A stretch of DNA of 64,000 bases from Salinibacterium sp. (lineage in GTDB: Bacteria > Actinomycetota > Actinomycetes > Actinomycetales > Microbacteriaceae): NCBI GenBank assembly GCA_004297555.1, contig SCSV01000286.1, positions 44,178 to 108,177 on the forward strand. The letters run 5' to 3'. Below, piece after piece: positions 3,503 through 43,063 of the stretch. Both the position numbers and the translations under genes were made by a program. Below the pieces are notes generated by a model. That model was not told the DNA's origin and searched no databases. It saw only the letters and a program-made list of their open reading frames with translations. The number at the start of each line of letters is the position of its first letter. The stretch's first letter is position 1.

Positions 3503-3509
3503 GGAGGAG

Positions 3510-4965: not shown

Positions 4966-4966
4966 C

Positions 4967-17299: not shown

Positions 17300-19675
17300 A
17301 TGGCCGCGGTCACGAACAACATCGAGTCGCACAATGCGCGGGGCATCGAGCGCTCGGACGTGGTGGTCGACAGTGGAAATCTCCACGGTCTCGGCGCGGC
17401 CGCGGTGAATCAGGCGTCGCTCGCGAAGAGCCACACCATGCTGACGAAGTTCGTCTGGTTCCGCTCGATGCTCGAACGCGAGCTGCAGCTGCAGAGCTAC
17501 AAGCTGGTGAAGGAGGACGGCCTGTACCGGTTCGTCCTCACGCCTGGGCTGCGGAAGGAAGCCGTGCCGTGGCAGCGCTTCGCCGCCGAGCGGTACACGA
17601 AGGCGCTGCTCTGGGGAACGGACAACGCGAAGATGCAGTGCCCCACGTTCGCGATTCCGGCCGGCGGCGTGATGGTCGGCGGCACGTGCCCCGGTGCGGA
17701 CGCCGGTCAGACGGTCACGCCGGTGAACGCCCGCGTGGCGCGTCTCGAAGGCGCTGCAGACGGCTGGCACCTCCGCACCGAAGCACCGGGCACCGGCGTG
17801 AAGCCGCTGGTGAAGGAAGGGCTTGCCGTCTGCCAGAGCTGCGTGACCGCCGATGCGCTCGTTCTCGTCCGCAATCGCGGACTCGTCCCCATTGGAGAGC
17901 TGGTCAACGCCGGCATGGTGGAAGTGTGGAGCGGAAAGTCGTGGCAGAAGACGCATGCCGTGTTCAACGGCGTTCTGCCGACGTTCCTGGTGACACTGTC
18001 CGATGGGCGCACGATTCGCGCAACTGGAGACCACAACTTCATTCTCGCTGACAACTCTCGCGTTCGGGCCGATGAGCTTCAAGAGGGAGAAGCACTCCCG
18101 TGGGAACTTCCGGAGCCCGATGCATCGAACTTCGACGTGACGGGACGGCTGCCGCTCGTTCACCTTGAAGAGCAGCACTTCAACGAGAAGCGAGGCCAGC
18201 TCCCGACACAGTGGTCTCGTGAGTTGGGCCTCTGGCTCGGCTACATCATCGGGGACGGATGGTTCAACGGAAGCGTCAAGCATCCGACCATCGGCATTTG
18301 CGCGGCGGAGCAAGACCGCGGTGACCTCGACCACATCAACGCATTTGTGTCGAGGTGGACAGGTTCGGAAGCCGAGGTGAACGTCAGTGAGGTCGAACGT
18401 TCGAATGACCTCGTCACGTGCGAGACGCCACAGTCGATGGCGAAGGTTTTCTGGCGTCAGAAGTCGGCTGTGGCACTCGCGTTGGGGCTTGGGCTCAAGA
18501 AAGCCAAGGCGGACACGAGAACGCCGGAGTCCATCTGGTCGGCGCCGATGGATGCGGTTTCGGGCTATCTCTCCGGCCTTTTCTCCACTGATGGGAGCGT
18601 CGGCTTTCGAGGGCACGGAGTTGAGATTTCGTTCGCTTCAGTTTCGCGCACGCTCGTCGATGAGGTTCGACAGCTGCTCATCATGTTCGGCATCAAGTCG
18701 AGCTTGACGAAGTACAAGAGCAATGAGGAGCGCGGCTACCTTCCGTTATGGAAGGTCTCGCTGACTTGCCACGAGAGCATCATGCGCTTTCGGAAGCACG
18801 TCGGATTCTTCAATGAGCGCAAGTCGAAAAAGCTGGAAGCGTTCATCATCAGTCCGAAGTTCTCTCACCGTGAGCGCAAGACGAATGCGCACGTCGAGAG
18901 TGTCGTTCCTACCGGTAAACTCGAGCCAGTATTCGACCTCGTCAACGTCGGGCCTGAGCACCAGTTCACAGCCAACGGCATCAGCATTTCAAATTGCTAC
19001 GCGACCGAGGGCTCGTTCAGCCGGTCGAGTGTTCAAACGGATGAACTCGTACGCTTCTGGTGGATTCGCTCGCAGCTGCAGAACAAGAACGAGGCGCTAC
19101 TGGAGCAGGTCTTCGTCGACTCCATTCTCTCGCTGCCGTTCAAGCACGACCGCCACGGCATCAAGCCCATCCGCCTGCACGACTCGGGTGACTTCTTCTC
19201 ACAGAAGTACGCCGAGATGTGGCTGCGCGTTGCTGACGAGCTGGCGGTGCGGATGCCCGAGGTCGTCATCTGGGCTCCGACGCGCACGTGGGCACAGGGC
19301 GGGTGGACGGAGTTCTGGAACCAGCGGCTGCCGCGCTTGAAGAGCGTTCAGTTGGGAAGACGCCCCAACCTGATGGTGCGCCCCAGCGCGTACAACTTCG
19401 GAGACGCCGCGCCGGAAGCGATGGCGCAGGGGAACTCGCGCGGCTCGACGTCCCTCTACGCGGTGCACGCGCGCGTGCCGGCGGAGCTGAAGAACAGGAC
19501 GGACGCCACGAAGGTCGGCCTCACGCGAGGGCTCGAGCCACGCGCCGACTTCAACTGTCAGGTGTACGGAGCGGAGACGGCGTCGTGCACCGCTTCGCTC
19601 GCGCCGGATGGAAAGCGCGGCTGCCGCGCGTGCTGGGTTCACCCTGAGTTGAGGATTAATTATTCTGCTCACTAG
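17300..19675 (+). CDS. Gp88-like (mycobacteriophage gene product 88 family) protein interrupted by an intein
   Basis: GGTCPGADAG...KEGLAVCQS|CYATEG...IRLHDSGDFFSQKYAEMW. Confidence 0.7.
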   Translation: MAAVTNNIESHNARGIERSDVVVDSGNLHGLGAAAVNQASLAKSHTMLTKFVWFRSMLERELQLQSYKLVKEDGLYRFVLTPGLRKEAVPWQRFAAERYTKALLWGTDNAKMQCPTFAIPAGGVMVGGTCPGADAGQTVTPVNARVARLEGAADGWHLRTEAPGTGVKPLVKEGLAVCQSCVTADALVLVRNRGLVPIGELVNAGMVEVWSGKSWQKTHAVFNGVLPTFLVTLSDGRTIRATGDHNFILADNSRVRADELQEGEALPWELPEPDASNFDVTGRLPLVHLEEQHFNEKRGQLPTQWSRELGLWLGYIIGDGWFNGSVKHPTIGICAAEQDRGDLDHINAFVSRWTGSEAEVNVSEVERSNDLVTCETPQSMAKVFWRQKSAVALALGLGLKKAKADTRTPESIWSAPMDAVSGYLSGLFSTDGSVGFRGHGVEISFASVSRTLVDEVRQLLIMFGIKSSLTKYKSNEERGYLPLWKVSLTCHESIMRFRKHVGFFNERKSKKLEAFIISPKFSHRERKTNAHVESVVPTGKLEPVFDLVNVGPEHQFTANGISISNCYATEGSFSRSSVQTDELVRFWWIRSQLQNKNEALLEQVFVDSILSLPFKHDRHGIKPIRLHDSGDFFSQKYAEMWLRVADELAVRMPEVVIWAPTRTWAQGGWTEFWNQRLPRLKSVQLGRRPNLMVRPSAYNFGDAAPEAMAQGNSRGSTSLYAVHARVPAELKNRTDATKVGLTRGLEPRADFNCQVYGAETASCTASLAPDGKRGCRACWVHPELRINYSAH
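17840..18994 (+). mobile_element. Intein 2 (385 aa) with LAGLIDADG endonuclease
   Basis: CVTADALVLVRNRGLVPIGELV; ATGDHNFIL; LGLWLGYIIGDGWFNGS and YLSGLFSTDGSV; VFDLVNVGPEHQFTANGISISN|C. Confidence 0.9.
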
Positions 19676-20200: not shown

Positions 20201-21099
20201 AGCGAACGTTCGGCGACTACGAGATTCGCGCGTACCGTCGCGAGAGTGACAGCTACATCTCCGTCAGCGCGAACTGGTTGAAGACCCCGCTCGGACAGGA
20301 CGACCGCATCGGCTCTGCGGAATTCTGGGAGAGAGAAGACGACCTGTTCCCCGAGCAGGTTTGGGTGCTCGAAGCGCACCAGCGCAAGGGTATTGCCACG
20401 AAGATGTACGAGTTGGCGTCGGAGATTTCTGGTGGAAAGCCCGTTTCGAACAGTGACCGTCAAAGTTCTCAGGGTTGGGCGTTTCGCAATAGGCTGGGAG
20501 CCGTGTCCGCGACCATCATCGACCAGGGCTCGTTCTCTCACGCTCTACTCGCCAAGGCGGGCAGCGAAGCCGTGACTTCGTCCCTGAACATCGAGGGCAC
20601 CGCGTCCACGCAGCCAGTCGGCTTCGAGGCGTACGAAACTGCGCCGTGCAAGCTGTTCAAGACTCCCGGCCAGAAAGTCGCCCCAGAGCACAAACGCCCT
20701 CCGTGTCAGGTGCAGCTCACCGCGACCGAAGACGGCACGTCGATGGCGGTGCGTCTCTGCGACGACGGCAAGGGAACCGTGGCGCCGGTGAAGAGCGTTG
20801 ACGAGGCGAAGCAGGTCATCGACCGCTACTGCAAATGCGCGCGCAACAAGCCGGCGAGCACCCGCGTGAAGTGCGCACGCAAGACGGTGGGGTTGAGTGG
20901 TGACCGCGGCGAGCTGAGCACGTCCGTGATGGAGGTCTACCCGCCGGAGCGTCTCGCGCCCACGATGGTGAAGAAGTACGGGAACAAGGAAGCTGCCGCA
21001 GCGGCCGCCCAACAGTCTGCGATGAACTACCCATCTGGTGATGTGCACCGCATCTACTGGGAGAGCGTGCACCAGTTGATTCGTCGCGGGGTACACTGA
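20188..21099 (+). CDS. Protein with GNAT-like acetyltransferase motif
   Basis: VWVLEAHQRKGIATKMYELAS. Confidence 0.5.
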   Translation: MGDLKRTFGDYEIRAYRRESDSYISVSANWLKTPLGQDDRIGSAEFWEREDDLFPEQVWVLEAHQRKGIATKMYELASEISGGKPVSNSDRQSSQGWAFRNRLGAVSATIIDQGSFSHALLAKAGSEAVTSSLNIEGTASTQPVGFEAYETAPCKLFKTPGQKVAPEHKRPPCQVQLTATEDGTSMAVRLCDDGKGTVAPVKSVDEAKQVIDRYCKCARNKPASTRVKCARKTVGLSGDRGELSTSVMEVYPPERLAPTMVKKYGNKEAAAAAAQQSAMNYPSGDVHRIYWESVHQLIRRGVH

Positions 21100-21611
21100 T
21101 GAAAGGTGCCGGCATCATCATCGCGGGCGCGGGTGCAGCGCTTATCGGCTACGCGCTCTTCTCCCCGTTCCGTGTCGTGATGGGTTTCAGGAAGGGAGTT
21201 CCATTCCCGGTGACTGTGCGCAGAGTCGGGCGTCTGTGGAACGGTGACTGGGCATGGATGGAGCTGAAGGCAGCCGATGCCTTTGAAGGTCTGCGTCGTT
21301 CAGCGTACGCGGCTGGTCTCGACTTGCCACTCTCAGCGGCGTTTCGCAGCTGGCAGGAGCAAGCAGCGATGAAGGCAAAGCGATTGCTCTTCGGTGGTCC
21401 TCCGACCGCAGACCCGGGGTACTCGAACCACCAAGAAGGCACCACGGTCGACATCGACATCGGCGTGAGAGACGCGATGACGAACTACCGGTCGAGTCGC
21501 GTCTGGCACTGGCTTCGAGAGAACGCTCGCTCGTATGGATTCGTCGACGACGTCTACCAGCCTGGGAATCCGAAGTACGAACCGTGGCACTGGAGATATT
21601 ACGGAGAATGA
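21099..21611 (+). CDS. Membrane-anchored M15-like (D-Ala-D-Ala) peptidase
   Basis: N-terminal TM; AAFRSWQEQ, SNHQEGTTVDIDI, EPWHWRYYG. Confidence 0.8.
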   Translation: MKGAGIIIAGAGAALIGYALFSPFRVVMGFRKGVPFPVTVRRVGRLWNGDWAWMELKAADAFEGLRRSAYAAGLDLPLSAAFRSWQEQAAMKAKRLLFGGPPTADPGYSNHQEGTTVDIDIGVRDAMTNYRSSRVWHWLRENARSYGFVDDVYQPGNPKYEPWHWRYYGE

Positions 21612-22175: not shown

Positions 22176-22673
22176 ATGGCTCAGTACTACGACTCGAGCA
22201 CCTCACCGTTCTACCGGAACCGTTACCCGCGACCTCCGATGCTCGACAAGGGCAATCTCGGGCCCCCCATCTTCGGTCCGTACCAGCAGCGGTGGGACCC
22301 GAACACGCGTGCGTGGTACCGGCCGGATGGTTCGCGCGCTCCACTCGCGGGGTTCGGTGGGCTCGGTGAGACGCTGCTCCCTGAGCTGGACTTCACCGCG
22401 AGCACGACTCCCGAGGTAGTCGACCGGCAGACGTTCTTCACACTCGCTGTCGCCGTCGCACTCGGGCTGGGTGGAGGCTGGGCACTGGAGAAGCACCACA
22501 AGATGGCGGGTTTCGCCATGCTCGGGCTGGGTGGAGTCGCTGCCATCACCGCGGTGCTGATGCTCAAGCGCAACGTCGATGCACGCAACAGCTTCCTCGC
22601 GTGGCAACAGGCGCCCGCTCCTCCGCCGCCGGGCCTTCCGGGCTCCGGCATGATTGCCGGCTGGAGGGGCTGA
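22176..22673 (+). CDS. Membrane protein of virion module
   Basis: FFTLAVAVALGLGGGWALE, MAGFAMLGLGGVAAITAVLML. Confidence 0.6.
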   Translation: MAQYYDSSTSPFYRNRYPRPPMLDKGNLGPPIFGPYQQRWDPNTRAWYRPDGSRAPLAGFGGLGETLLPELDFTASTTPEVVDRQTFFTLAVAVALGLGGGWALEKHHKMAGFAMLGLGGVAAITAVLMLKRNVDARNSFLAWQQAPAPPPPGLPGSGMIAGWRG

Positions 22674-23005
22674 TGAAGACCGGCGGCAAGGTGGCGTTGG
22701 GGATTGCGGCTGCCGGCGTGGCCGGCTTCGCGCTCTACTCGATTTTCAAGCGGCGCTCCTCTGGACTCATCCCCTCTGACCCCGCCGAGTGGTCGCTTCC
22801 CACCTTCACCACCACGCAGGAGTTCTTCACTCCGGCTCCTCCGCCTCCTCCGCCCACGACAGGGACGTGGCGCTTCGGTGTGGAAGTCATTCCCATCGTT
22901 CCGTCTTCCCTGAACTCGTCATGCACCTCGTCGCGGCAGTGCGGTGAGGGCACTGTCTGCATCAACGGGACGTGCCGTCCCGAAGCGGAGTGGAACGAGA
23001 GCTAG
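22673..23005 (+). CDS. N-terminal TM protein with Cys-rich tail
   Basis: VALGIAAAGVAGFALYSIFKRR; SSCTSSRQCGEGTVCINGTCRPE. Confidence 0.6.
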   Translation: MKTGGKVALGIAAAGVAGFALYSIFKRRSSGLIPSDPAEWSLPTFTTTQEFFTPAPPPPPPTTGTWRFGVEVIPIVPSSLNSSCTSSRQCGEGTVCINGTCRPEAEWNES

Positions 23006-23013
23006 GAGCCGTC

Positions 23014-23298
23014 GTGCGCGTGGTGAACGTGGTGAGACCAACCGACGGAATGGAGTTGCAGCTGCGGCTCTGCACTGGCGGGCTCGATTGCGTGCTGCCG
23101 CCGTTCTCGACTCCGTCGCGCGCGTTCAGCGGAGTCGGTACATTCATCACCGAGTGGGAAGAGAGCGCTCAGCGGGCCATGCAAGCGGAGCCGCTGTACT
23201 TCCGCAACTGGGACCGCGTGAAGACGACACTGCTCGTGGTCGTCAGCGGCGTACTCGCGTGGCAGCTCGTGAAGAAGCGGAAGACACTCTTCGATTGA
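23014..23298 (+). CDS. Tail-anchored small membrane protein
   Basis: C-terminal TTLLVVVSGVLAWQLVKKRKTLFD. Confidence 0.55.
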   Translation: MRVVNVVRPTDGMELQLRLCTGGLDCVLPPFSTPSRAFSGVGTFITEWEESAQRAMQAEPLYFRNWDRVKTTLLVVVSGVLAWQLVKKRKTLFD

Positions 23299-23914
23299 GA
23301 GCCTGCTCTTTTCGAGTTGCCCACTTCACATTGCCCGGTTCGTAGTTTCCGTCGTTGTTGATGCGCTCGATGGTGAGGTGAGGAGCTGGGCGCCGGCCAA
23401 CGTCGGAGAGGAAATCGTTGAACGAATTGAGCCAGCGGCGGCAAACCTTGATGCCGCGTCCACCGTAGTTCTCCCAGCTATCGGATTTCGGATTGGTACA
23501 GCGCTGCTTCATAGCTGTCCAGATGGCGTACTCCGGCATCTTTCGTACGCGCTTCCACTGATTGAGCCACGCTTGCCGTGCACAACCACAACTGGTCGTT
23601 CGTCCACCGAGCAGATTTGAGGGGTGGACCTTTCCCGTGCTGCCACAGTCGCAGACGCACATGATTTTGCCGTCGGGGCAAACGAATCTTGTCCACAACC
23701 GGCCAAACCGACGTCCCAAAATTGGGACCTTCTTCTCCAGTGGGGTAGAAATGTCCTTGCCAGACCACTGGCGGAGGTAGTGACCGTTGCACAGGCCTTT
23801 GGCTCTGACCGGCTTCGAACACTTCGGTGAGCAGGGGGCGGAACAGGTCACCATGTTTCTACCTATATCACCTTTCTGGTATACCGTGAAGAGCATCGCA
23901 CTCGTCGGGGTCAC
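23243..23914 (-). CDS. Zn-ribbon plus HNH-like homing endonuclease
   Basis: CVCDCGSTGKVHPSNLLGGRTTSCGC; YGGRGIKVCRRW...TIERINNDGNYEPGNVKWAT. Confidence 0.8.
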   Translation of the reverse strand: MTPTSAMLFTVYQKGDIGRNMVTCSAPCSPKCSKPVRAKGLCNGHYLRQWSGKDISTPLEKKVPILGRRFGRLWTRFVCPDGKIMCVCDCGSTGKVHPSNLLGGRTTSCGCARQAWLNQWKRVRKMPEYAIWTAMKQRCTNPKSDSWENYGGRGIKVCRRWLNSFNDFLSDVGRRPAPHLTIERINNDGNYEPGNVKWATRKEQALNRRVSSASSRAATRVRR

Positions 23915-23947
23915 CGCCGCACTCGTCTACGTTCTCGTTCGCAGGAA

Positions 23948-24382
23948 GTGAGAAAGTTCATCGTGCGCGACGACATCAACATCGACCCCGGAAACGTCCC
24001 ACGCCCGGCGGAGTCCCCTCGAATTCCGTCTCCGGCCGAAGAGAAGACTGACCCGGCGATGCGCGTCATTCGGGAGAAGATGCACAGCGAGTTGAACTGG
24101 CAGGGCGCGAAGCTCACCGCCGCGATGTGTGTGGTGGCCATCGGCACGGCATTCGGCGCGTACGCGTTCGTGATGAACTCCGCCTCTGCGCAGACCGATG
24201 CCGGACTCAAACCGCTCGCCGAGATTCAAAAGGCGCAGGACGCGCGCCTCACCACGCTCGAGAAACGTTTCGACCGCTTCGAGGAGCGCACCGACAAGCA
24301 GATGAACCTGCTGTTGGACGCTGCCCGCGTACCCGAGACGAAGAGACCAGCTCCGCTTCAGAAGGACGGCGGTGGGGAGTAG
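23948..24382 (+). CDS. Single-TM protein
   Basis: LTAAMCVVAIGTAFGAYAFVM. Confidence 0.55.
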   Translation: MRKFIVRDDINIDPGNVPRPAESPRIPSPAEEKTDPAMRVIREKMHSELNWQGAKLTAAMCVVAIGTAFGAYAFVMNSASAQTDAGLKPLAEIQKAQDARLTTLEKRFDRFEERTDKQMNLLLDAARVPETKRPAPLQKDGGGE

Positions 24383-24395
24383 CTGTTGGGCTCGC

Positions 24396-24941
24396 CTACT
24401 TCTCGTCTTTGGGTGGCCACAACCCGACCATCTGCAGCTGCGTGCTCACCGCGTTCTCGATGAGTGTGATGAGCGTCTTTCCGGTACCGCGCGATTGTTT
24501 CGTGAGAGCGGCGTGCATCTTCTCCGGCAGTCGAACGGTGAATGAAACGGTCTTCGGCTTCTTGGGTTTTGCCGGGAGCTGGTCCTTGTTCCACCGCTGT
24601 TGGTAGTGCCTTCGGCACATGCCGCGTGCGAGGGCGCGTTCTTCGCACGACTTCCCGTCTGCGTCCTTCATGAAGCAATACAGGAGGTCATTCGGTGCAG
24701 GTCCGAGCGGCATTTTTCCATTCTCCTTGTTTCGAGCTGTCCGCTGTGCGCGCCATTCGTGGCGAAGACAGCCGCAGCTCTTCGTGAATCCGCCGAGTAG
24801 AGAGCCGATGGCGATGTACTTCTTGGTACCGCAATCGCACCGACATAGCATCTTGTGTCCGCGGCGAGGTCCAATGCCTATCAGTCGGCCTATTCGCTTC
24901 CCGAGGAGCGTTGGCCACTGTGCAGGGTAGGGCATCAGCAC
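24396..24941 (-). CDS. Zn-ribbon domain fused to ribbon-helix-helix-like C-terminus
   Basis: CRCDCGTKKYIAIGSLLGGFTKSCGC; KTVSFTVRLPEKMHAALTKQSRGTGKTLITLIENAV. Confidence 0.65.
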   Translation of the reverse strand: MLMPYPAQWPTLLGKRIGRLIGIGPRRGHKMLCRCDCGTKKYIAIGSLLGGFTKSCGCLRHEWRAQRTARNKENGKMPLGPAPNDLLYCFMKDADGKSCEERALARGMCRRHYQQRWNKDQLPAKPKKPKTVSFTVRLPEKMHAALTKQSRGTGKTLITLIENAVSTQLQMVGLWPPKDEK

Positions 24942-25057
24942 GAACGGATAACACGAACGTCGAAGCTTAGGAACCTGCCCCTTGCCGAGTTCCTAGACAC
25001 ACCCCCCATATCGTTTCTCCTGTGGGCAGTCACCACGCCCTTTCACATGGAGAAACG

Positions 25058-25636
25058 ATGAGCACCAACCTTCAGCACTTCGGACTCGGCAACGTGGCGG
25101 CGATGGTCGGCCTCCAGCCTTCCAACCTCAAGCGATACGCCGCGCTCGCAGCCGGTGGAGTCGGTGGCGTGATGGGCAGCGACTTCGTGCAGTCGCAGCT
25201 GCTCCCTCGCGTCGGCGTGCGTGTCCCGGTGAAGTGGGCTCCGCTCTTCACGGCACTCTTCGGCGTCATGGGCGGCACGTTCGCGACGCGGAAGCTCCAC
25301 ATGCCGAACATCGGCACCGGCATGTTGGTCGGCGGGCTCGCGGTCGGAGCTTCGGCGGCCATCTCGATGCTGCTCGCCCCCGCAGTCGTGGCGACCACCG
25401 ACTCGGGTCAGCCGGTCGCCGGTCTCGGCTTCGGTCGCGTCTTCTCGCGCGGCGTGCGCGGCCTCGGGCTCGGACGCGTCCCGGGCAACCCCATGCTGTT
25501 CGGTGCCGGCACCCCGAACATGGCCGGCGCGCGCATGTTCAACGGCGCGACCGTCGCCATCGAGCAACCCGGACTGCTCCAGGGCGCGACCGTCGCCATC
25601 GAGCCCTCCAACCGCTTCGCCGCCGCGCTGACGTAA
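25058..25636 (+). CDS. Gly/Ala-rich membrane-active virion candidate
   Basis: Multiple hydrophobic segments; duplicated GATVAIEQPGLLQGATVAIEPSN. Confidence 0.5.
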   Translation: MSTNLQHFGLGNVAAMVGLQPSNLKRYAALAAGGVGGVMGSDFVQSQLLPRVGVRVPVKWAPLFTALFGVMGGTFATRKLHMPNIGTGMLVGGLAVGASAAISMLLAPAVVATTDSGQPVAGLGFGRVFSRGVRGLGLGRVPGNPMLFGAGTPNMAGARMFNGATVAIEQPGLLQGATVAIEPSNRFAAALT

Positions 25637-25721
25637 GCGCCGCCGCACCACCGCACGTAGTCGAGCGCCCGAAAGGGCATCACGCAGTTCAACGTCGTAC
25701 CCAGCAGGAGCAGCACAGACC

Positions 25722-26351
25722 ATGAACCAGATTGCGATTCCCACGAACAAGCCGGGTGAGGTCTACATCCCCGCGCTGGGCAAGACGTTCCAGCAAATCG
25801 AGCTGCGAGAGGACGATGTCTACGACACCATCCTCATCACGGCCGCGTCGCAGGCGAACCTCACCTACACGTTCTGGCGCGACGTGCAGAACAAGGACCT
25901 GCAGGACTGCAACCTCCCCAACCCGAGCCGCATCCAGTCGGGCGACGAGGTCGCCATCTTCCGCATCGGCGTGCACCCGCGCGAGGCCGTCGGCAACACG
26001 CTGCCGGTGTTCAACGACTACCGCAAGGTCGTCGCGGCGGCGCACCTCGAGGTCATCTTCAACCGCCGGCCCATCACCAGCGGGCCCATCATCAAGTACC
26101 CCTCGGGTCTCGGCATCGGTGGGTTCTCGGACGAGACCGGCGCCACCGCGGTCAGCATCGGTGTGCCCTCGGTCGCGGCGGCCCCGACCCTGTTCGTCCC
26201 GCAGCAGCTGAAGGACGACGACGACGTGAAGAGCAAGCTCCGCTTCCTCGCGGCGGACTGGATTTCGGGGTACGTGGCGCCGGTGACGGCGAACACGGTG
26301 CGCATGACCCTGTTCCTCCACGGCGTGATGAAGAACCCGCTCGGCAAGTAG
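25722..26351 (+). CDS. Candidate capsid protein 1 (209 aa)
   Basis: No TM; position at head of membrane-protein block; beta-rich appearance; no family assignment possible by eye. Confidence 0.4.
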   Translation: MNQIAIPTNKPGEVYIPALGKTFQQIELREDDVYDTILITAASQANLTYTFWRDVQNKDLQDCNLPNPSRIQSGDEVAIFRIGVHPREAVGNTLPVFNDYRKVVAAAHLEVIFNRRPITSGPIIKYPSGLGIGGFSDETGATAVSIGVPSVAAAPTLFVPQQLKDDDDVKSKLRFLAADWISGYVAPVTANTVRMTLFLHGVMKNPLGK

Positions 26352-26485: not shown

Positions 26486-27067
26486 ATGCCGCCGAACCAA
26501 AACCCCTACTGCCCCGCGCCGGGGGAGCCGGCTCCTCCGGCAGGCCGTATCGCCTCCTTCCTCCAGGAGGCGCTCGACCTGTCGCCGGCCATCGTTCGCG
26601 GTGTCGGCGTCACGATGAGCGCGGCGCTCACCACGGCCACCACGACAGGCAGCTCGAAGTACAAGGTGCCGGCCGACCAGGAGCTGGTGGTGTTCGCACT
26701 GAGCGGCTTTCTCAAGTTCGCCGCGCTCAGCTCTGAGCCCACGGCCATCCTCGGGTGGCTGAACCTCGACCCGTCGGAGCGCTGGTTCGTGAAAAGCCAG
26801 AACTGCAACGTCGGGCTCAAGAACACCGACCGCTCACTCGATGTCTTCGATGGCGATGGCGTGGTTCCCATGTCTGCCATCACCCCTCCGGTGGGTACGC
26901 CCATGTACTGGCACCCTGAGGCACCGAACATCTTCAACGCGGGTCACACACTCCAGGCGACGTTCACCCTCGGAGACACGACGGCCGCTGTCGTGGGCAC
27001 GGCCGGCAACAGCACGACGTACGGGCTGCTGCTGACAGGCAACCTGATTCCGAACCGGAACCGCTGA
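26486..27067 (+). CDS. Candidate capsid protein 2 (193 aa, beta-rich)
   Basis: Alternating beta-like segments YKVPADQELVVFALSGFLKF...HTLQATFTLGD; follows candidate 1. Confidence 0.4.
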   Translation: MPPNQNPYCPAPGEPAPPAGRIASFLQEALDLSPAIVRGVGVTMSAALTTATTTGSSKYKVPADQELVVFALSGFLKFAALSSEPTAILGWLNLDPSERWFVKSQNCNVGLKNTDRSLDVFDGDGVVPMSAITPPVGTPMYWHPEAPNIFNAGHTLQATFTLGDTTAAVVGTAGNSTTYGLLLTGNLIPNRNR

Positions 27068-27078: not shown

Positions 27079-27762
27079 GTGGCCAACGGGCTCTCCATCA
27101 ACGGTGTCGTCCAGCCCGTAGGCTTCGGGCTGGGCAGTGTCGTGACGTGGTCGAGCGGCGGCGTGCCCAACACGTACATGAGCGTGTTTGCCACGCGAAC
27201 CGGATGGAAGTTCGATTCTGGCAACGCGGCGCTCAAGTCGCTATGCCAGGGAGAGCTGATTCCGCGCGTGGGGAGCCCGAGCGCGTTTGCCCCGGCGAAC
27301 ACCTGCGGCATCGATGGCTCGATGGCGTGCAACTACGGCTCACCGGAGAGCGCGCTCAGTGGGCTGGGTGGGTTGGGAGCTGCGTTCTGCACCCCGCTCA
27401 ACGATGCTCTTCGAGAGTTGCAGAACATCAAGGTGACGTCGTACGACCGCTTGAGCAGTGCTTCGCAGGCATCGCTCGATGCGGTACTCGAAGACCTCGG
27501 TGGCTTTGCGGTGTACGTGCCGTTCCTCGGCAATGAATGTGAGCGTCACACCGCCGAGGTTCGAGCGATGGTGCAGAGTCTACGTGGTGAGCTGGGTGCC
27601 GCTGCACCACCCCCGCTGCGCCCGGGCGTCGACGCGGGCGGTGAGCCGAGCGGTATGCAGACCTGGATGAAGGTCGCCATCGGCATCGGTATCGGTGCCG
27701 TTGCACTTGGTGCGCTCGGTTATTCGGCAGGGAACCTCGCGCGGCTTTTCAGGGGGCGCTGA
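27079..27762 (+). CDS. Tail-anchored virion-module protein
   Basis: C-terminal KVAIGIGIGAVALGALGYSAGNLARLFRGR. Confidence 0.6.
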   Translation: MANGLSINGVVQPVGFGLGSVVTWSSGGVPNTYMSVFATRTGWKFDSGNAALKSLCQGELIPRVGSPSAFAPANTCGIDGSMACNYGSPESALSGLGGLGAAFCTPLNDALRELQNIKVTSYDRLSSASQASLDAVLEDLGGFAVYVPFLGNECERHTAEVRAMVQSLRGELGAAAPPPLRPGVDAGGEPSGMQTWMKVAIGIGIGAVALGALGYSAGNLARLFRGR

Positions 27763-28733
27763 TGCGAAACCTCACCACCCTCGAGCGGCAGCTTCGCGAA
27801 GACGCCACTCTCGACGTCACCGCGCGACAGGCTGCACTCGTCGCCGTCGACGACATGATGCGCGCCGCGACGCGAGCCGGTGCTCTGCTCTCTCAGGCGC
27901 GCGTGGCGAACGTTGCAGCGGCCACCCATCCGAATTCTCCGGCTGCGCAGAACCGGGCAGCTCTAGCGCGTGCGGCGTACGAGGAGCGCACCAACGCGGA
28001 AGTCGCGAAGTACCGCGCCGTGTACGCGCTGCTCGCGGAGATGCACGGGCAGGAAGGCGTGGGTGCGTCGCAGATGGCGCAGCAGGCGATGGATGCCCAA
28101 GCGCAGCGTCCGTTCGTCGCGGCGGCGAAACACCACGGCAAGGTGCGCGACCTGATGCTGCAGGCGAGTGCTGCCGCTGGAAAAGCGCTCAAGATGGTGC
28201 CGCCCCTCCCGTACGACGTTGCGCCGATGGCTCGCATTGGGCCCGAGGCAAACGTCGCGCAGGGTCACTCTACTGAGCTGCTCGCGCAGCCTACCTTCGG
28301 CTGGCGACCGAAGAAGTACAGCGAGCTGATGGGCGACTTTTTCCCCATGAACTACCGGCTGGCCGCTGGTGCTCTGAGTGGGGTCCATGGCGTCTCTGTC
28401 GGCTCGCAGTTCGGAACCGCCGATGCGACGGCGAACATGCCGACCGGCGAGAGCTGGTGGAACTCGCTGCAGAAGGCCATCGGCTACGGCGCCAAGGCGG
28501 CTGGCGAGGCAGCGACCGCAGAGGGGCAGAAGAAGGCGGAGCAGGACCCCACCGGTGCCGGCGTGCTGCAGACTGGCGGCAACATCCTCAACGTCTTGTC
28601 CGCCATGCTGGGAGCTGGCGTCGACCAGGGGATGCAGCAGCCCACTCCGGCACAGACGGATTGGGGCAGCGTGGCACTGGTGGTGGGCGGGCTCGCGTTG
28701 GGCGGGTTCGCTTTGTGGAAGCTGACGCAGTGA
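27762..28733 (+). CDS. Tail-anchored virion-module protein
   Basis: C-terminal VALVVGGLALGGFALWKLTQ. Confidence 0.6.
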   Translation: MRNLTTLERQLREDATLDVTARQAALVAVDDMMRAATRAGALLSQARVANVAAATHPNSPAAQNRAALARAAYEERTNAEVAKYRAVYALLAEMHGQEGVGASQMAQQAMDAQAQRPFVAAAKHHGKVRDLMLQASAAAGKALKMVPPLPYDVAPMARIGPEANVAQGHSTELLAQPTFGWRPKKYSELMGDFFPMNYRLAAGALSGVHGVSVGSQFGTADATANMPTGESWWNSLQKAIGYGAKAAGEAATAEGQKKAEQDPTGAGVLQTGGNILNVLSAMLGAGVDQGMQQPTPAQTDWGSVALVVGGLALGGFALWKLTQ

Positions 28734-28751
28734 CGTGAAGGAGATGACCCG

Positions 28752-29258
28752 ATGCCCGGAATGACCGATTCCAACAACGTGCCGTGGTGGGCCCCGGGGC
28801 GCCCGCTCATCATCTCGGACCCGAACAAGCTGACGTACTTCGCGCGCGCGAATGCCGTCCGTGCAGGACTCACCGCGTCGGCCGCGCTGCACGGTGTGGC
28901 GGTCGGAGACGGAGAGTGGGCGAACCCGTTTCTCTCCGAGGACACGGCACCGGGAGACGACCGCGCGTTCACCAGCGCGATGTCGTTCTACAACCCGAGT
29001 GTCGACACCGGCGCGCGACAGGTGCCGATGGGAATCGCTGCCGGCTCGTTCCAGCAGAGCGCCGGCACTGTCGAGACGCCGTCGGGCGGGCGCACGCTCG
29101 ATACGTTCTTCAACTCGTTCAACAACTTCCTGCGGAGCCCGGCGCCGGGTCAGTACGGCCCCCAGCCGGTCGCTCAGCCGTCGCCCTGGCCCTGGGTGGT
29201 GGGTGCAGGCATCGCGGGAGTCGCGCTGCTGATATTGGCGAGGCGGCGGAGGAGCTGA
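28752..29258 (+). CDS. Tail-anchored virion-module protein
   Basis: C-terminal PWVVGAGIAGVALLILARRRRS. Confidence 0.6.
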   Translation: MPGMTDSNNVPWWAPGRPLIISDPNKLTYFARANAVRAGLTASAALHGVAVGDGEWANPFLSEDTAPGDDRAFTSAMSFYNPSVDTGARQVPMGIAAGSFQQSAGTVETPSGGRTLDTFFNSFNNFLRSPAPGQYGPQPVAQPSPWPWVVGAGIAGVALLILARRRRS

Positions 29259-29261
29259 GAG

Positions 29262-29471
29262 GTGCCGGCACCCAGACAGATTCCGTGGTGGCTCTGGGCC
29301 GCGTTCGGTGGCGCTGGCGTCCTCATGGCAAGTAAGGAACGAAGCATGAACGCGTGGAAAGTGGTCGGCATCGGTGCCGGAATTTACAGCGCGTACATGG
29401 TCAAGGAAACGCTCTCCGGTGCGGTTCGCGGCCTTAATGGCTGCACCACCTGCACTCCCCCGAACTGGTGA
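29262..29471 (+). CDS. Small membrane protein
   Basis: PWWLWAAFGGAGVLMAS, VVGIGAGIYSAYMV. Confidence 0.5.
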   Translation: MPAPRQIPWWLWAAFGGAGVLMASKERSMNAWKVVGIGAGIYSAYMVKETLSGAVRGLNGCTTCTPPNW

Positions 29472-29478
29472 CCCTCCA

Positions 29479-29682
29479 ATGATGCACAGAGCCAACCAGA
29501 ACGCGATGACCGAGGCCCAGGCGTCTCAGCTCTGCACCACGTACGGTGCCGAGTTTCGCGCCACGAAGGGCAACGTCGACTGGTGGAGGCTGCCCGACGG
29601 AACCTTCCTCGGTGTGAAGAAGTTGGGCAACGGGCTGGCGGAAGTCAGGCGCGTGAGCGCAGAGGCCTGCGGCTGCAGCTGA
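29479..29682 (+). CDS. Hypothetical small protein
   Basis: ORF between membrane protein and basic peptide genes. Confidence 0.4.
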   Translation: MMHRANQNAMTEAQASQLCTTYGAEFRATKGNVDWWRLPDGTFLGVKKLGNGLAEVRRVSAEACGCS

Positions 29683-29693
29683 AGGGAACGACG

Positions 29694-29852
29694 ATGATGA
29701 AGAGCGACACGCTGATGCACAAGAAAGGTAAGCGCAAGAAGGGCAAGCGCTACTGCCGGCGAAAGAAGTGCGCTCTGCGCATTCCCCTCATCGGCGTCTG
29801 CCTGTGGACGACCACAGTGAGAAAAAAGTGCCCGCGGAAGCGGAGGCGGTGA
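29694..29852 (+). CDS. Tiny Lys/Arg/Cys-rich protein with LMHKK motif
   Basis: MMKSDTLMHKKGKRKKGKRYCRRKK...CPRKRRR. Confidence 0.6.
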   Translation: MMKSDTLMHKKGKRKKGKRYCRRKKCALRIPLIGVCLWTTTVRKKCPRKRRR

Positions 29853-29856
29853 CGTC

Positions 29857-30600
29857 ATGATGTTCCCCAACTTCAACCCGTACACGTTCGCGCGGCTCTC
29901 TCCGCGCCAGCGGATGATGCAGCAGCTCGCGGGTCGGGGCTACGGCTCCTTCGGACTCGCCGAAGTGGCACAGGTCGGCCTCGGCTCAGTCTCGGTGCTT
30001 CGAGGCACGAGTCACCTGGGCTTCAACCCGGACGCGGTCATGAGCCAGATGCCGAGCGGCTCCAGTGTCGAGCCGTTGGCTGTCGACCAGATGGCTTACC
30101 TGTCTCCTCCTCCGGCGCCGGAGCCCAGCGGGACGATGCTGGTGGACAACGCATGCACAGGAGTGACGTGCCCGGCTGACCAGCAGTGCGACCCCGGTAC
30201 CGGACAGTGCGTGCCGAGTCGGGCTGTCGTCGAGGTGAGCGCGTTCAACCCGACTCCCGCGCGTTCTCCTTTTCCCACGTCGGTCGCAACCGAAGAGACC
30301 GCGCCCGAAGTGTCCACGCCGGACGTCTCAGCGGGGCCGAGCTACTCTCCCGGCACTTCGGTCAGCCCGGATGACGTCAGCCTCTACGAGCGCGGCGGCA
30401 ATGAGCCGTTTGTGTACACCGGCGGCAGCGGCGGAAGTGGAGAAGGTTCTGCGCCGCCTGCCGTGAAGCCGGCGACCGTGGCCCAACAGGCAGCTGCAGT
30501 TCTCAGCGAACGTCCCTCCACCGGTATTCCGTGGTGGGGCTACGCACTCGGTGCTGCAGCGGCCGGCTTCGCGCTCTACAAGCTCGGGGGACGCAAGTGA
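29857..30600 (+). CDS. Tail-anchored protein with Myxococcota-type Cys-rich module
   Basis: DNACTGVTCPADQQCDPGTGQCVPS; C-terminal IPWWGYALGAAAAGFALYKLGGRK. Confidence 0.65.
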   Translation: MMFPNFNPYTFARLSPRQRMMQQLAGRGYGSFGLAEVAQVGLGSVSVLRGTSHLGFNPDAVMSQMPSGSSVEPLAVDQMAYLSPPPAPEPSGTMLVDNACTGVTCPADQQCDPGTGQCVPSRAVVEVSAFNPTPARSPFPTSVATEETAPEVSTPDVSAGPSYSPGTSVSPDDVSLYERGGNEPFVYTGGSGGSGEGSAPPAVKPATVAQQAAAVLSERPSTGIPWWGYALGAAAAGFALYKLGGRK

Positions 30601-30893
30601 GGTATGTCGTGTCCGGCGACGGATTCGGGTTCACCCCATCCAACGTGATGGAGTTCATCCCGAAGCAGAGCACCGGCGCTGCGCTCGTCTCGGACACCTC
30701 GAGTCTCCCGGTGCTGCAGACCATCGAGGCCTTTCGCGCCAAGAACCCCATTCGGACCACGGTGCGGCAGGAACAGCAGCAGGAGCAAATGGGCGAGCCC
30801 AGCGACAACAAGCTCATCACGTTCGCATTGTGGGGGGCGGCAATCCTCGGTGGCGGTGGGCTTCTGCTGTACGCTTTGCTGAAGAGAAAGTGA
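30597..30893 (+). CDS. Tail-anchored virion-module protein
   Basis: C-terminal KLITFALWGAAILGGGGLLLYALLKRK; GTGA overlap start. Confidence 0.6.
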   Translation: MRYVVSGDGFGFTPSNVMEFIPKQSTGAALVSDTSSLPVLQTIEAFRAKNPIRTTVRQEQQQEQMGEPSDNKLITFALWGAAILGGGGLLLYALLKRK

Positions 30894-30900
30894 ACGCCGC

Positions 30901-31887
30901 ATGAACCTCTACGACCGGTTGAAGATGTCCCCGATGTCGGCCCGCTCGATGGCCGCCTCGGTTCTCGGCGTCAGCGCCCCGGGTGCAATCCCGCCGGCTG
31001 TGCCGGACGTCCAGTCGCTCTTTTCTCGCGGTTCGCTCGCGCGCAGCGTCGTCAACGCCTCGACGGACATGGACTACGTCCTCGGGCAATCCGGCGTTGG
31101 GCTGAATGGAGCGTCCGGCGCGTTCGGTACACGCTTCGGTGGGCTCGGGTTCCTTTCCGGTGGTCAGATTCCGGTGTTCGCCAGCTACACGATGAGCGAC
31201 TGCGCGCTGTCGAACTTCTACGACACGGCGAACTACAGCTGGCTCAAGGCCCACGGCACTGACGGCGGCTCTTCGTTCTTCGTGAACATCGACTACACCC
31301 CGCCGGACGGCTCGCTCAAGGAGAGGGCCACCAAGGGGTGGACCTACCTGAAGAACGAAGCCGACAGCGGCAACACTCACGCCCGTGCGGTGTTCGACCA
31401 GCTCGACAGCTCGATGAAGGTGTACATGGCCCAGGTCAGTGCGCTCGCGGATGCGCACGACGACCGACTGGGTTGCGGTCACGCGATGGCGCGCGGCTGG
31501 TCCGCTCAGCAGCAGCTCTGGGAAGGCTTCTCCGCCATCGTGAGCCTGATGAAGCAGTTCGCGAACGCTCCCGCTGGGGTGCCGCCTCTGATGGTGGAAG
31601 ATGGCCCCGCGACGGGGGGCTCCAACATGGACGCAGCCGACTCGCGCAGCAACGTCGACCCGCTGACGCAGTCGTACCTCACGCGCGCCAATCGCCTGCA
31701 GCAGGAAGAGGATGCTGCCGCGCAGCAGCTCATCCTGGACAAGCAACAGGAGCAGATGCAGCAGTTGCTCAAGCAACAGCAGTCCGCGGCGACAGCCGGA
31801 GGGGGTCTCCCGTCGTGGGCGCTTCCCGTTGGGGTCCTCGCCGCGGCTGGTGTGGCGGCGTTCGTGATTCTCCGCAAGAAGAGGTAA
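30901..31887 (+). CDS. Tail-anchored virion-module protein (328 aa)
   Basis: C-terminal WALPVGVLAAAGVAAFVILRKKR. Confidence 0.65.
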   Translation: MNLYDRLKMSPMSARSMAASVLGVSAPGAIPPAVPDVQSLFSRGSLARSVVNASTDMDYVLGQSGVGLNGASGAFGTRFGGLGFLSGGQIPVFASYTMSDCALSNFYDTANYSWLKAHGTDGGSSFFVNIDYTPPDGSLKERATKGWTYLKNEADSGNTHARAVFDQLDSSMKVYMAQVSALADAHDDRLGCGHAMARGWSAQQQLWEGFSAIVSLMKQFANAPAGVPPLMVEDGPATGGSNMDAADSRSNVDPLTQSYLTRANRLQQEEDAAAQQLILDKQQEQMQQLLKQQQSAATAGGGLPSWALPVGVLAAAGVAAFVILRKKR

Positions 31888-31897
31888 CGAGTTTTCG

Positions 31898-32545
31898 ATG
31901 TTCGGCCTTTCGCACCTGCAGCTCTCTCACACCGCGACCGCGATGGGCGGAGCCGTGCCGTTCCAGGGTGGCGGCGTGGGAGAGTTGCGCGAAGGCACGA
32001 TGGGGAGCGCGGTGAAGGAGCTGCAGAGCAAGCTCAACGTGCTGCAGTACGGACCGGTGGCCGTGGACGGGACTTTCGGCGCGAGCACCAAGCAGGCGCT
32101 GATGAACTTCCAGGCGACCGAGGGCATCGGCGGCACCCCGCCGTCTGGTGTTCTCGATGCCGAGACCGAGGCGCGGCTCAACCAGCGCATCTTGAACGTG
32201 AGCACCGGTGCAGGTGCAGGGGTGAATCCGCAGACCGGGTTGCCTGTGCAACCGACTCCCGCGCGACCCTGGTGGCAGACCGCACTGATGGTGGCCGGTG
32301 GTGTGGCCATCGCAGGTGGCGTCATCTATCTGTTGACGAGTGACGATTCCAAAGGCGGTTACAAGCGTGCCCTCAGCTCGCGCACTGTCGAGCACGACCC
32401 GAACGTGGCGACGAGGTTCAAGCGCGAGGTGAAGGCACACGGGAGCACGTTGCGCGGAGCGCACCGCGCGAAGTGTGACCGGGCGCCTTCCGAAAGCGCA
32501 TTCGATGAGGGCGAAGCGCTCTCTGCACCCGAGGTGACGTCATGA
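31898..32545 (+). CDS. Peptidoglycan-binding domain protein with TM segment
   Basis: VKELQSKLNVLQYGPVAVDGTFGASTKQALMNFQ; TALMVAGGVAIAGGVIYLL. Confidence 0.75.
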   Translation: MFGLSHLQLSHTATAMGGAVPFQGGGVGELREGTMGSAVKELQSKLNVLQYGPVAVDGTFGASTKQALMNFQATEGIGGTPPSGVLDAETEARLNQRILNVSTGAGAGVNPQTGLPVQPTPARPWWQTALMVAGGVAIAGGVIYLLTSDDSKGGYKRALSSRTVEHDPNVATRFKREVKAHGSTLRGAHRAKCDRAPSESAFDEGEALSAPEVTS

Positions 32546-32874
32546 TGGGCTACGTGCCACAGATTCTTCCCCAGTCGTACATCGAGACGCGCAGCTTCAG
32601 TGGGCTCGGTGACACGTACTCTCCGCCACCGCTGGTGCAGGCCAATGCTTCGACCGGAGGCTCCGGCGGCGGTGGGTTCCTGAACTTCGCCAGCAACCTC
32701 ATCGGGGGTGCGTTCGCGGCCGGAGCGCAGGGCTCGATGGAGTTCAACACGGCGGCCGCGCAGCTGGACGCTCAGCGCCTCGCCAACGAGCGCTCTCGCC
32801 GGTGGGCGGCGTTCGGGGCGGTAGCTGTTGGAATCGCCGGGCTGGCCGGAGTGGTGTACCTTCTGAGGAAGTGA
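32542..32874 (+). CDS. Tail-anchored virion-module protein
   Basis: C-terminal AAFGAVAVGIAGLAGVVYLLRK. Confidence 0.6.
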   Translation: MMGYVPQILPQSYIETRSFSGLGDTYSPPPLVQANASTGGSGGGGFLNFASNLIGGAFAAGAQGSMEFNTAAAQLDAQRLANERSRRWAAFGAVAVGIAGLAGVVYLLRK

Positions 32875-32885
32875 GCGCAGCTTTT

Positions 32886-33275
32886 ATGAACGGAAGATAC
32901 AACAGCATCGTCCTCTTCACTCCCCCGCGGCTCGCGGAGGAGCGGAAGACGTACTGGCCGGGCATGAGCCAGTACTCTCAGCCCGCTGTTGCCACGGGGC
33001 TCGGGGAGGTCACCGCCGTCGGGCCCAGCGGCAATACCGGGAACGACATCCTCGCGCAGCTGCACAACAACTTCGTCGACCTCATCGGTACCTTCACTGG
33101 GCAGAAGAGCCAGGAGAAGGCGCGTCAAGACGCGCTCTACCTCGCCCAACTCCAGCAGCAGCAGTACGCGTTCGAGGCGCAACAGCGCACCGAGGGGTGG
33201 AGTCGGGCGGCCCCTTGGCTCACCGTGGGCGGTGCGGTGGTGGCTGTGGCGGTGGTGATGGCGGCGCGAAAGTAG
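32886..33275 (+). CDS. Tail-anchored virion-module protein
   Basis: C-terminal APWLTVGGAVVAVAVVMAARK. Confidence 0.6.
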   Translation: MNGRYNSIVLFTPPRLAEERKTYWPGMSQYSQPAVATGLGEVTAVGPSGNTGNDILAQLHNNFVDLIGTFTGQKSQEKARQDALYLAQLQQQQYAFEAQQRTEGWSRAAPWLTVGGAVVAVAVVMAARK

Positions 33276-33294
33276 CGCGCAAGTAAAGGACTCC

Positions 33295-33666
33295 ATGGCG
33301 AACACCAAAGACAACGGACCTCAGGCTCAGGCGGCGGCGCTCTTCGGCAACGGCATTTCTTGGGTGCCGGGGCTCGGCTACGTCAGCGGTGCACAGGCGA
33401 ACGGCGGGGGGCGCCTCGGTGACGATGCCGCGGTGATGATGATTTCGGGCACCGGGCAGATGGGCAGCGAGGGCCGACAGGTCGCGGTGAACCCTCAGAC
33501 GGGAGTGGTGGAGTCGGTGAAGGGTGCCGGCTTCACGCTGCGCGCCGCGCTCACTCAGCCGGTTCGCATCGGTACCCTCGAGCTTCCGCTCTGGGCGTGG
33601 CTGCTCATCGGGGCCGGCGTGCTCAGCCTCGGCGCGTACTACATGCTGTTCCACAAGAAGAAGTGA
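33295..33666 (+). CDS. Tail-anchored virion-module protein
   Basis: C-terminal LWAWLLIGAGVLSLGAYYMLFHKKK. Confidence 0.6.
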   Translation: MANTKDNGPQAQAAALFGNGISWVPGLGYVSGAQANGGGRLGDDAAVMMISGTGQMGSEGRQVAVNPQTGVVESVKGAGFTLRAALTQPVRIGTLELPLWAWLLIGAGVLSLGAYYMLFHKKK

Positions 33667-34050: not shown

Positions 34051-34083
34051 GCCCCGGCGCTAGTTCAGGTCGGGGCTTTTTCG
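34051..34083. terminator. Rho-independent terminator at end of rightward block
   Basis: GCCCCG-GCGCTAGTTCAGGT-CGGGGC-TTTTT. Confidence 0.75.
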
Positions 34084-34553
34084 TTTGCGGGCGCAGCCTT
34101 CAGCTCCGCGTTGTACTTCTCGAGCCACTCGGCAGCCTGCATCACCGCCTGGAACCGCTCGCGGGAGCCGTCAGCTCGGTCCGGGTGAAACAGCTTGGCC
34201 CTCTCGCGCTTCTTCTCGCGAATCAGCTCCGAGTCGACCGGCTTGCCGTACTTGCCGTCGATGCCGAGACAGCTGCAGGCAACCATGAACTGAACGGAGC
34301 TGATGCTCTCGCCGGTGCGTTTGGCGCGCTTGGTGACCTTCTCCTTCACCTTCTTCGCCGCGGTCGTCACTGCATCGGCACCGTCGCGCATCGCGTTTCG
34401 AACGTTGTGTCGCAGCTGCCGGCGCATGGTGGCCTTGCCCCGCGCGCTCATACCGGCCGCATCTCCGAGCCTCTCCGACAGCTCGGTCGCCGCGGTGCTC
34501 GACAGCGTGTCGATGAGGCCGGAGAGGAAGGAGGGCTTCTTCGGTGGTGGCAT
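34065..34553 (-). CDS. J-domain (DnaJ-like) protein
   Basis: ELIREKKRERAKLFHPDRADGSRERFQAVMQAAEWL. Confidence 0.5.
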   Translation of the reverse strand: MPPPKKPSFLSGLIDTLSSTAATELSERLGDAAGMSARGKATMRRQLRHNVRNAMRDGADAVTTAAKKVKEKVTKRAKRTGESISSVQFMVACSCLGIDGKYGKPVDSELIREKKRERAKLFHPDRADGSRERFQAVMQAAEWLEKYNAELKAAPANEKAPT

Positions 34554-39607: not shown

Positions 39608-40045
39608 CTAAGAAGCGTCCAGCACCTTCCTGTACTGCTCCAGCGTCGGAACGTCAACCCCACGCGCTGCGTACTTCTCCTGTGCCCGCTTCTGGAGCCG
39701 GTGTCCGGTCCCGAAGTGATTCCACGCCGAGCACAGCTCCTCGCACGCGTCGCAATACGTCTTCGCCCAGGTGTTACCGTCGGCGGCGTCCGGGTTGCTC
39801 ATGTCTCCCGTGTACCGCCGCACCGTCACGTTGCGGACGTAGCAGCACAGCTTGCACGCACGCCGCTCCTTCCACGAGCGCAGCTGAGTCTGGTGCGTCT
39901 GTCCACACGTCGGGCATCCGTACCGCGCGATACCGGTCTGCTTGTCCAGGCTGAACTTCGCACCGCGAACCTTCTTGCGGTAGTCGACGCAGTCGTAGTT
40001 GCCACAGGCTCGAACGTCCTTCTCGACAATCCAGGCGCGTGTCAT
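39608..40045 (-). CDS. Zinc-ribbon-like protein
   Basis: CGNYDC...CPTCGQ...CKLCC...CDAC. Confidence 0.5.
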   Translation of the reverse strand: MTRAWIVEKDVRACGNYDCVDYRKKVRGAKFSLDKQTGIARYGCPTCGQTHQTQLRSWKERRACKLCCYVRNVTVRRYTGDMSNPDAADGNTWAKTYCDACEELCSAWNHFGTGHRLQKRAQEKYAARGVDVPTLEQYRKVLDAS

Positions 40046-42017: not shown

Positions 42018-42286
42018 CGGTCTCCCATCTCGCGCACCACCTCGCCGACGTTGTCGCAGAACGCGTCCCGGGTCTCGTCGACCAGAATCGAGTAGTCCGT
42101 GCGGCTCATCTCGACGTAGCGCACCGTGAACTCGTCCGCGGGCGTCAGGGTGACGATGACCTTGGCGAGCTTGCGCGAGCTGCCCACGCGGAACATGAGC
42201 TGCCGGCCGTCGCGCACGAAATCTCGAGCCCCAACGGCCATCAGGTTGCCCTTGCCGATTTGCTTGAGCAGAGTCTGGGCGTCCAT
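42014..42286 (-). CDS. Hypothetical small protein
   Basis: ATG 42286; operon ORF. Confidence 0.45.
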   Translation of the reverse strand: MDAQTLLKQIGKGNLMAVGARDFVRDGRQLMFRVGSSRKLAKVIVTLTPADEFTVRYVEMSRTDYSILVDETRDAFCDNVGEVVREMGDR

Positions 42287-42293
42287 GGTAGCC

Positions 42294-42584
42294 TCACTCA
42301 GCGAACGGCGTGATGTGGATGACGCAGTCGTAGTCCTTGACCTTCGAGGTCTCGAAGGGGGAGCCGGGCTCCAGCATGCGGAAGAGGTCTTCCAGCTCTT
42401 GGACGTTCTCGTCGCTGAGTGCCGTCTGCTCGCCGGTGATGTTCTGCACCGGCAGCGCGATGGCGTGGAAGTCGGCACCGCCGATGGAGACGTGGCAGTA
42501 GAAGCCCTCGGCGGGCTTGCCGCTGACGCGCTCCACCCAAGGGAGGAGGTCGAAGGAAGAGAGGAGAGAGACGAAGGCGGGCAT
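42294..42584 (-). CDS. Hypothetical small protein
   Basis: MPAFVSLLSSFDLLPWVERV..., TGCACAGGAGCC upstream. Confidence 0.5.
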   Translation of the reverse strand: MPAFVSLLSSFDLLPWVERVSGKPAEGFYCHVSIGGADFHAIALPVQNITGEQTALSDENVQELEDLFRMLEPGSPFETSKVKDYDCVIHITPFAE

Positions 42585-42613
42585 GGTGTGGCTCCTGTGC
42601 AGTGTGTGGGTGG

Positions 42614-42625
42614 TTGACGTGTCAG
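42614..42625. promoter_or_regulatory. TTGACGTGTCAG palindrome copy
   Basis: Direct reading; intergenic between 42584 and 42638. Confidence 0.5.
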
Positions 42626-42637
42626 CGTGGGTGTTAT

Positions 42638-42982: not shown

Positions 42983-43032
42983 GGTCGGCTCCTGTGCAGG
43001 TGGTGCGGCAGGGAGATGGTAAGCACGGGCCG

Positions 43033-43063
43033 TGACGTGTCAAGGCGGGTAGATGACGTGTCC
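43033..43063 (-). promoter_or_regulatory. Two tandem TGACGTGTCA/TGACGTGTCC sites, 21-bp period
   Basis: Minus-strand TTGACA-16 nt-TACCAT promoter overlapping the first. Confidence 0.6.

Follow-up and report, generated by a model that had tools for sequence, protein, structure and literature searches.

Comparison with described tailless phages

Tailless phages that contain a membrane are usually regarded as small. The largest one found described, SSIP-1, has a 44-kb genome, T = 49 architecture and two types of major capsid protein (MCP) (PMC6260650, PMC6356626), and the genomes of the Helvetiavirae (including SH1 and P23-77), now placed in the realm Singelaviria (PMC12714852), are ~16–31 kb (PMC12642351, PMC12643093). 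The element described here, contig SCSV01000286.1 of a fragmented 2.25-Mb metagenome-assembled genome (MAG), is more than twice the size of SSIP-1. The window, the 64,000-nucleotide stretch that was analysed, comprises bases 44178–108177 of this contig. The contig is a closed 108-kb circle, and it probably represents a tailless, icosahedral phage with an internal membrane and a capsid of the single-jelly-roll kind. This reading is preferred because the element has no recognisable tail genes, and because it has a capsid-type gene and a transglutaminase in common with a set of smaller viruses in which no tail genes were detected. Coordinates are in window numbering unless marked 'contig'; 168 proteins were called on the contig.

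SSIP-1 is the nearest studied analogue. It too has a circular genome encoding several tail-anchored proteins of matching layout (three of them, gp34, gp41 and gp53, carry structural annotations), but its genome is 44 kb rather than 108 kb, and the replication genes of the element are its own. The sequences give marginal support to a common origin of the two MCPs (gp45, E = 0.11; hhalign, 0.0066), and the gp40 ATPase is weakly similar to that of the element (E = 0.02). The likeness to the Helvetiavirae lies in the match of the element's ATPase to their packaging ATPases and in the resemblance of a relative's MCP to the jelly roll of P23-77 VP16. However, the MCP has no sequence-level match in that group, profiles give one MCP candidate here, a second being putative, where that group has two vertical single-jelly-roll MCPs, and the hydropathy scan described below finds fewer tail-anchored proteins there (one in P23-77, none in SH1). 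SPV1, of the Portogloboviridae, is the best fold match in the PDB to a relative's MCP, but it is an archaeal virus and has no packaging ATPase (PMC8812541).

Circular genome and search for tail genes

The two ends of the contig overlap exactly by 100 bp and an epimerase gene runs through the join, which makes the element a circle of 108,077 bp. There were no tRNA or Rfam matches on it. The other sampled contigs of the MAG are short (1.6–13.6 kb) and their tetranucleotide use is unlike that of the element, with correlations of 0.68–0.73 between the element contig and three MAG contigs as against 0.84–0.90 among those three. The element is therefore probably independent of the rest of the MAG, and because of this mismatch its binning there is no proof of host.

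Families in PHROGs and Pfam were searched with 137 of the 168 called proteins, and again with 94 of these after those of known function had been removed. Among the best 25 families listed in each scan there were none for the large terminase subunit (TerL), portal, HK97 capsid, tape measure, baseplate or tail, so that the hallmarks of the Caudoviricetes (large terminase, portal, HK97-fold MCP and tail proteins) are absent from the matches listed. TerL models had no matches in the whole MAG, and a single TerL model (Terminase_6N) had none in the records of eight relatives. Portal matches in the MAG were confined to two small contigs, C61 and C365, which are not joined to the circle; these portal genes suggest that a tailed prophage or phage fragment was also binned in the MAG.

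It is quite unlikely that the element is a tailed phage with head and tail genes too diverged for PHROGs and Pfam, in which the tail-anchored proteins would serve lysis, superinfection exclusion or membrane remodelling. Its replication genes do match families mainly from tailed phages, and PHROG 2666, labelled 'terminase large subunit', matches both of its HerA-like proteins. The packaging ATPases of SH1 and P23-77 bear that label in their own records too, so it is no argument for a tailed phage. Besides the negative results above, the lineage to which the capsid-like protein belongs has a 12.5-kb member with neither room for a tail module nor sign of one.

Capsid-like protein and its fold

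The putative MCP, a protein of 209 aa and single-jelly-roll type, is encoded at 25722–26351 on the plus strand and was recognised with profiles of relatives. A hidden Markov model (HMM) of 14 relatives, made without the window sequence, matched it at E = 5.8e-8, while the next best of the 168 proteins scored 0.72, the best of 1000 shuffles 0.18 and the best of 1061 control open reading frames (ORFs) 0.92. An earlier HMM of eight sequences gave E = 1.2e-5 (hhalign, E = 3.8e-5), and direct tblastn to a 60.6-kb relative (G415/L078) gave E = 2.3e-5, calculated against that 20-kb locus. As a single query in IMG/VR and the genome contigs the protein found nothing, and a fold search with its low-confidence model found nothing significant.

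The capsid-like protein of another relative, L072, was modelled (predicted local distance difference test, pLDDT, 72; predicted template modelling score, pTM, 0.72) with a jelly-roll-like series of strands. Its best PDB match was the SPV1 capsid protein (probability 1.00, E = 1.5e-3), with PRD1 P5, P23-77 VP16 and PM2 P2 lower in rank among other viral jelly rolls. The best match in a viral library was I1ZBH9 (E = 9.5e-5; record name unconfirmed), which at 211 aa has the length of SSIP-1 gp46.

A phage of the double-jelly-roll type (PRD1, PM2 or tectivirus-like), with its true MCP elsewhere in the genome, would likewise be expected to have small virion membrane proteins and FtsK/HerA ATPases, which are typical of that group too (PMC8812541). 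It is nevertheless a very improbable explanation: the L072 protein is modelled as a single barrel, the window candidate has 209 aa, and there are no double-jelly-roll families among the Pfam and PHROG matches listed.

The next gene (26486–27067, plus strand, 193 aa) is a candidate second capsid protein by position, since it follows the putative MCP gene as a small capsid-like gene does in the relatives.

Relatives with the transglutaminase and capsid-like genes

A transglutaminase-core protein, apparently interrupted by an intein, is encoded at 15043–16779 on the plus strand. It is the sole Transglut_core match of the set and is common to the lineage described here. Its extein (the intein left out) carries the motif QTPxxTLxxxxGDCDD and matches relatives in phmmer at E values down to 9e-12; the relative L064 has a Transglut_core match of its own at 10648–11142 (E = 6e-10). 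The extein found nothing as a single query in IMG/VR. A degenerate DNA pattern of the motif found three IMG/VR contigs and 16 genome contigs, and several of these records encode a transglutaminase, small tail-anchored proteins, small Lys/Arg-rich proteins, and a protein of ~215–235 residues followed by one of ~140–155 residues. With a seed profile of four ~215-residue proteins, the window's included, MCP homologs were found in nine of 15 motif-found records, three of which had supplied profile seeds. A later search yielded eight IMG/VR loci (one already known), including G415, and the MCP-type gene was found in 4 of 396 genomes of the phylum of the Acidobacteria MAG, the starting genome being one of the four.

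Members of the lineage are L023/L067, L064, L065, L066, L072, G401, G402 and G415/L078, together with contigs of Acidobacteria-phylum MAGs; the records, from IMG/VR and GTDB MAGs, span 12.5–61 kb and some are fragments. L064, an 18,527-bp contig of a Proteobacteria MAG, is built of head-to-tail copies (~98% identical) of a 12,532-bp unit. It encodes an integrase, a rolling-circle initiator, a transglutaminase and an MCP-type protein, and the unit probably represents a small member in full. The small members have integrases and initiators of the rolling-circle or GPA type, and phage lysozyme also occurs among the relatives. G415 has in common with the element a UvrD-type helicase (36%, 1e-40) and DinG-like helicases. 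Some MCP-type genes lie on large Acidobacteria-phylum contigs (L068–L069, 336 kb; L088–L090), which suggests integrated proviruses.

The element has the homologous MCP-type protein, the transglutaminase motif and the cluster of tail-anchored proteins in common with these relatives. It differs in size, in its HerA-type ATPase, which was not found in most members, and from the small members in their rolling-circle or GPA initiators. One relative's MCP-type protein had no match in 50,697 phage records and another's had none in 72,556 plasmid records, and the lineage is therefore probably overlooked in routine annotation. It is apparently previously undescribed, with no description found among open-licence papers. 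On balance, the element is likely to be a large member of a new lineage of tailless single-jelly-roll phages of ~12.5–108 kb, probably at family to order level. The small members of such a lineage would carry rolling-circle initiators, and the large ones their own PolA, helicases, recombination and glycan genes.

Several other links to possible relatives were tried and rejected. Relatives found through GP88 had little beyond the GP88 gene in common with the element, PolA gave weak matches as a marker, and the 862-aa protein at 9322–11910 did not match the protein encoded ahead of the transglutaminase in the relatives.

The relatives also bear on whether the element is a large plasmid, or a mobile element of another kind that forms no virions, with a jelly-roll protein that is not a capsid and tail-anchored proteins belonging to a surface or secretion apparatus. 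Circularity, a HerA-like ATPase such as many plasmids have, and the position of some relatives on large bacterial contigs would fit this explanation. It is unlikely, given that no conjugation or partition families are among the Pfam and PHROG matches listed, that a relative's MCP-type protein is without a match in the plasmid records, that the element has phage-type replication, GP88 and HNH genes, and that the relatives, which are found in IMG/VR, encode phage lysozyme and initiators of the rolling-circle or GPA type.

Cluster of tail-anchored proteins

Of the 13 genes in the region 27079–33666, 8 encode a protein with a soluble N-terminal part and a single C-terminal helix; among the other 155 genes of the contig there are 3 (Fisher p = 1.5e-8). 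Helices were called from Kyte-Doolittle hydropathy alone, with a 19-residue window, a threshold of at least 1.5, and a single helix ending at most 15 residues from the C-terminus. When each protein was shuffled, 0.28 tail-anchored proteins were found on average and 2 at most.

All eight genes are on the plus strand: 27079–27762 (helix at residues 199–217, basic end), 27762–28733 (304–322), 28752–29258 (145–163, tail RRRRS), 30609–30893 (69–87, tail KRK), 30901–31887 (306–324, tail RKKR), 32542–32874 (90–108), 32886–33275 (108–126) and 33295–33666 (101–119, tail HKKK). The sequence-only reading of the window had described at least nine such genes in a near-consecutive run, with mostly basic tails. 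All nine that it listed exist, though one of them, a probable tail-anchored protein with a Cys-rich module (29857–30600, plus strand), has a weak C-terminal helix, IPWWGYALGAAAAGFALYKLGGRK, that falls under the threshold. The genes are clustered as described, but the run is interrupted by three small genes without this layout at 29262–29852. A better start for the gene given as 30597 is 30609, and the basic character of the tails was borne out in seven of the eight proteins above the threshold, which have a net-basic end. The transmembrane segment noted in the peptidoglycan-binding protein (31898–32545, plus strand; PG_binding_1, PF01471, E = 1.2e-11) is present as an internal helix at residues 128–146.

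A tail-anchored cluster is present in relatives too, the likeness being one of layout and position and not of detectable sequence homology. The 30901 protein found nothing as a single-query bait in IMG/VR, and the structural block had no tblastn matches in phages. The tail-anchored proteins are candidate virion components, and an internal lipid membrane is predicted from them.

Three further plus-strand genes lie upstream of the cluster. The first (21099–21611) encodes a VanY-type D-Ala-D-Ala carboxypeptidase-like enzyme, assigned by sequence as the sole VanY match of the set (E = 4.7e-19), with an N-terminal helix at residues 3–21. The others encode small membrane proteins that may have a role in the virion, one with an N-terminal helix (22673–23005) and one with a basic end and a sub-threshold C-terminal helix (23014–23298).

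HerA/FtsK-type ATPase

Upstream of the window, contig 42226–43056 encodes a short ATPase (276 aa) of the FtsK-HerA superfamily. Compared with three reference viruses, it was most similar to the packaging ATPases of SH1 (1.6e-6) and P23-77 (9e-4), and it is a reasonable inference from this similarity that it packages DNA. The 41-kb relative G402 encodes a 584-aa HerA-like protein whose nearer counterpart in the element is the other HerA protein. No packaging ATPase was found on the contigs of the small relatives L064–L067 and L072; none is reported for FLiP and SPV1 either (PMC8812541). Since no such ATPase was found in most relatives, packaging by a HerA-type enzyme is not a feature of the lineage. 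As a single query in IMG/VR the ATPase found nothing. L018, a match to the ATPase profile, was rejected as a relative, as it has a TerL-like ORF and better matches the other, replication-side HerA of the element.

Proposed virion and weight of the evidence

Several points weigh against a tailless, membrane-containing phage. Both the phage particle and its membrane are predicted from genome sequence. The family scan, judged by the best 25 families listed, would miss strongly diverged genes, and it left out ~30 mostly short proteins, including most of those under ~80 aa. The putative MCP is distant from those of the relatives (20–25% identity) and its own AlphaFold2 model has a pLDDT of 54.6; the Foldseek scores of the L072 model are modest (PDB E > 1e-3, TM 0.37–0.46). 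A profile of the small capsid protein had no match to 26486–27067, so that a second capsid protein was not found by sequence, and the tail-anchored proteins had no sequence matches in the relatives. The 276-aa ATPase also resembles cellular HerA, and the 60.6-kb relative and most small members showed no HerA-type ATPase.

The sequence-only reading had itself arrived at a tailless phage with a membrane, which the capsid-like protein, the link to the transglutaminase lineage and the jelly-roll resemblance of a relative support. The fold resemblance is to single-jelly-roll capsids (SPV1, P23-77), not to the double jelly rolls of the PRD1 and PM2 types that it named. The genome is much larger than it took as usual, though its 'classical 10–20 kb' omits SH1 (31 kb) and SSIP-1 (44 kb). 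TerL, portal, tape-measure and tail genes, which it held would speak for a tailed phage if linked to the tail-anchored block, are not among the matches listed.

In the virion proposed here, the shell would be built from the 25722–26351 protein, possibly plus that of 26486–27067. The tail-anchored proteins would enter the host membrane by their C-terminal helix, and the resulting membrane patch would become a vesicle beneath the shell, by analogy with PM2, whose transmembrane proteins are believed to hold capsomers in register on the membrane (PMC6356626). Their soluble N-terminal domains would face the shell and register the capsomers, with the short basic tails towards packaged DNA in the lumen. 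The peptidoglycan-binding, VanY and transglutaminase proteins may breach the host envelope as the phage enters or leaves, and DNA would be packaged by the ATPase of contig 42226–43056.

If this is correct, the element has the largest known genome of a membrane-containing tailless bacteriophage, a bacterial parallel to the genome expansion in large DNA viruses of eukaryotes. A closed member of 108 kb would mean that this type of capsid can carry much larger genomes, which needs a much larger capsid. It would also leave to be explained how relatives without an obvious packaging ATPase package their DNA. The tail-anchored cluster provides a small set of proteins that are candidates for the virion membrane.

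Other genes of the element

The left part of the element is mostly on the minus strand and encodes a PolA-type polymerase, SNF2 and DinG-like helicases, an AAA_24 RecA-like protein, ThyX and a uracil-DNA glycosylase. Inteins apparently interrupt the DinG-like helicase (LAGLIDADG_3; contig 22819–26001) and the uracil-DNA glycosylase (contig 27119–28792), as well as the transglutaminase and the GP88-family gene at 17300–19675; four intein-split genes would be an unusually high number for a single phage. Genes for glycan modification form a sizeable set of epimerases, glycosyltransferases, a C-methyltransferase and a GFO/IDH oxidoreductase (contig 1–7432; window 2636–8490 and 62581–63879). A GroES-type Cpn10 (contig 39628–39894), a RadC-like protein (14576–15046) and a DnaJ-like protein (34065–34553) are also encoded. 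Cys-rich EB-like modules and a DGG-rich lipoprotein (22673–23005, 29857–30600 and 46686–47555) have a Myxococcota-like look, which may be a hint of the host.

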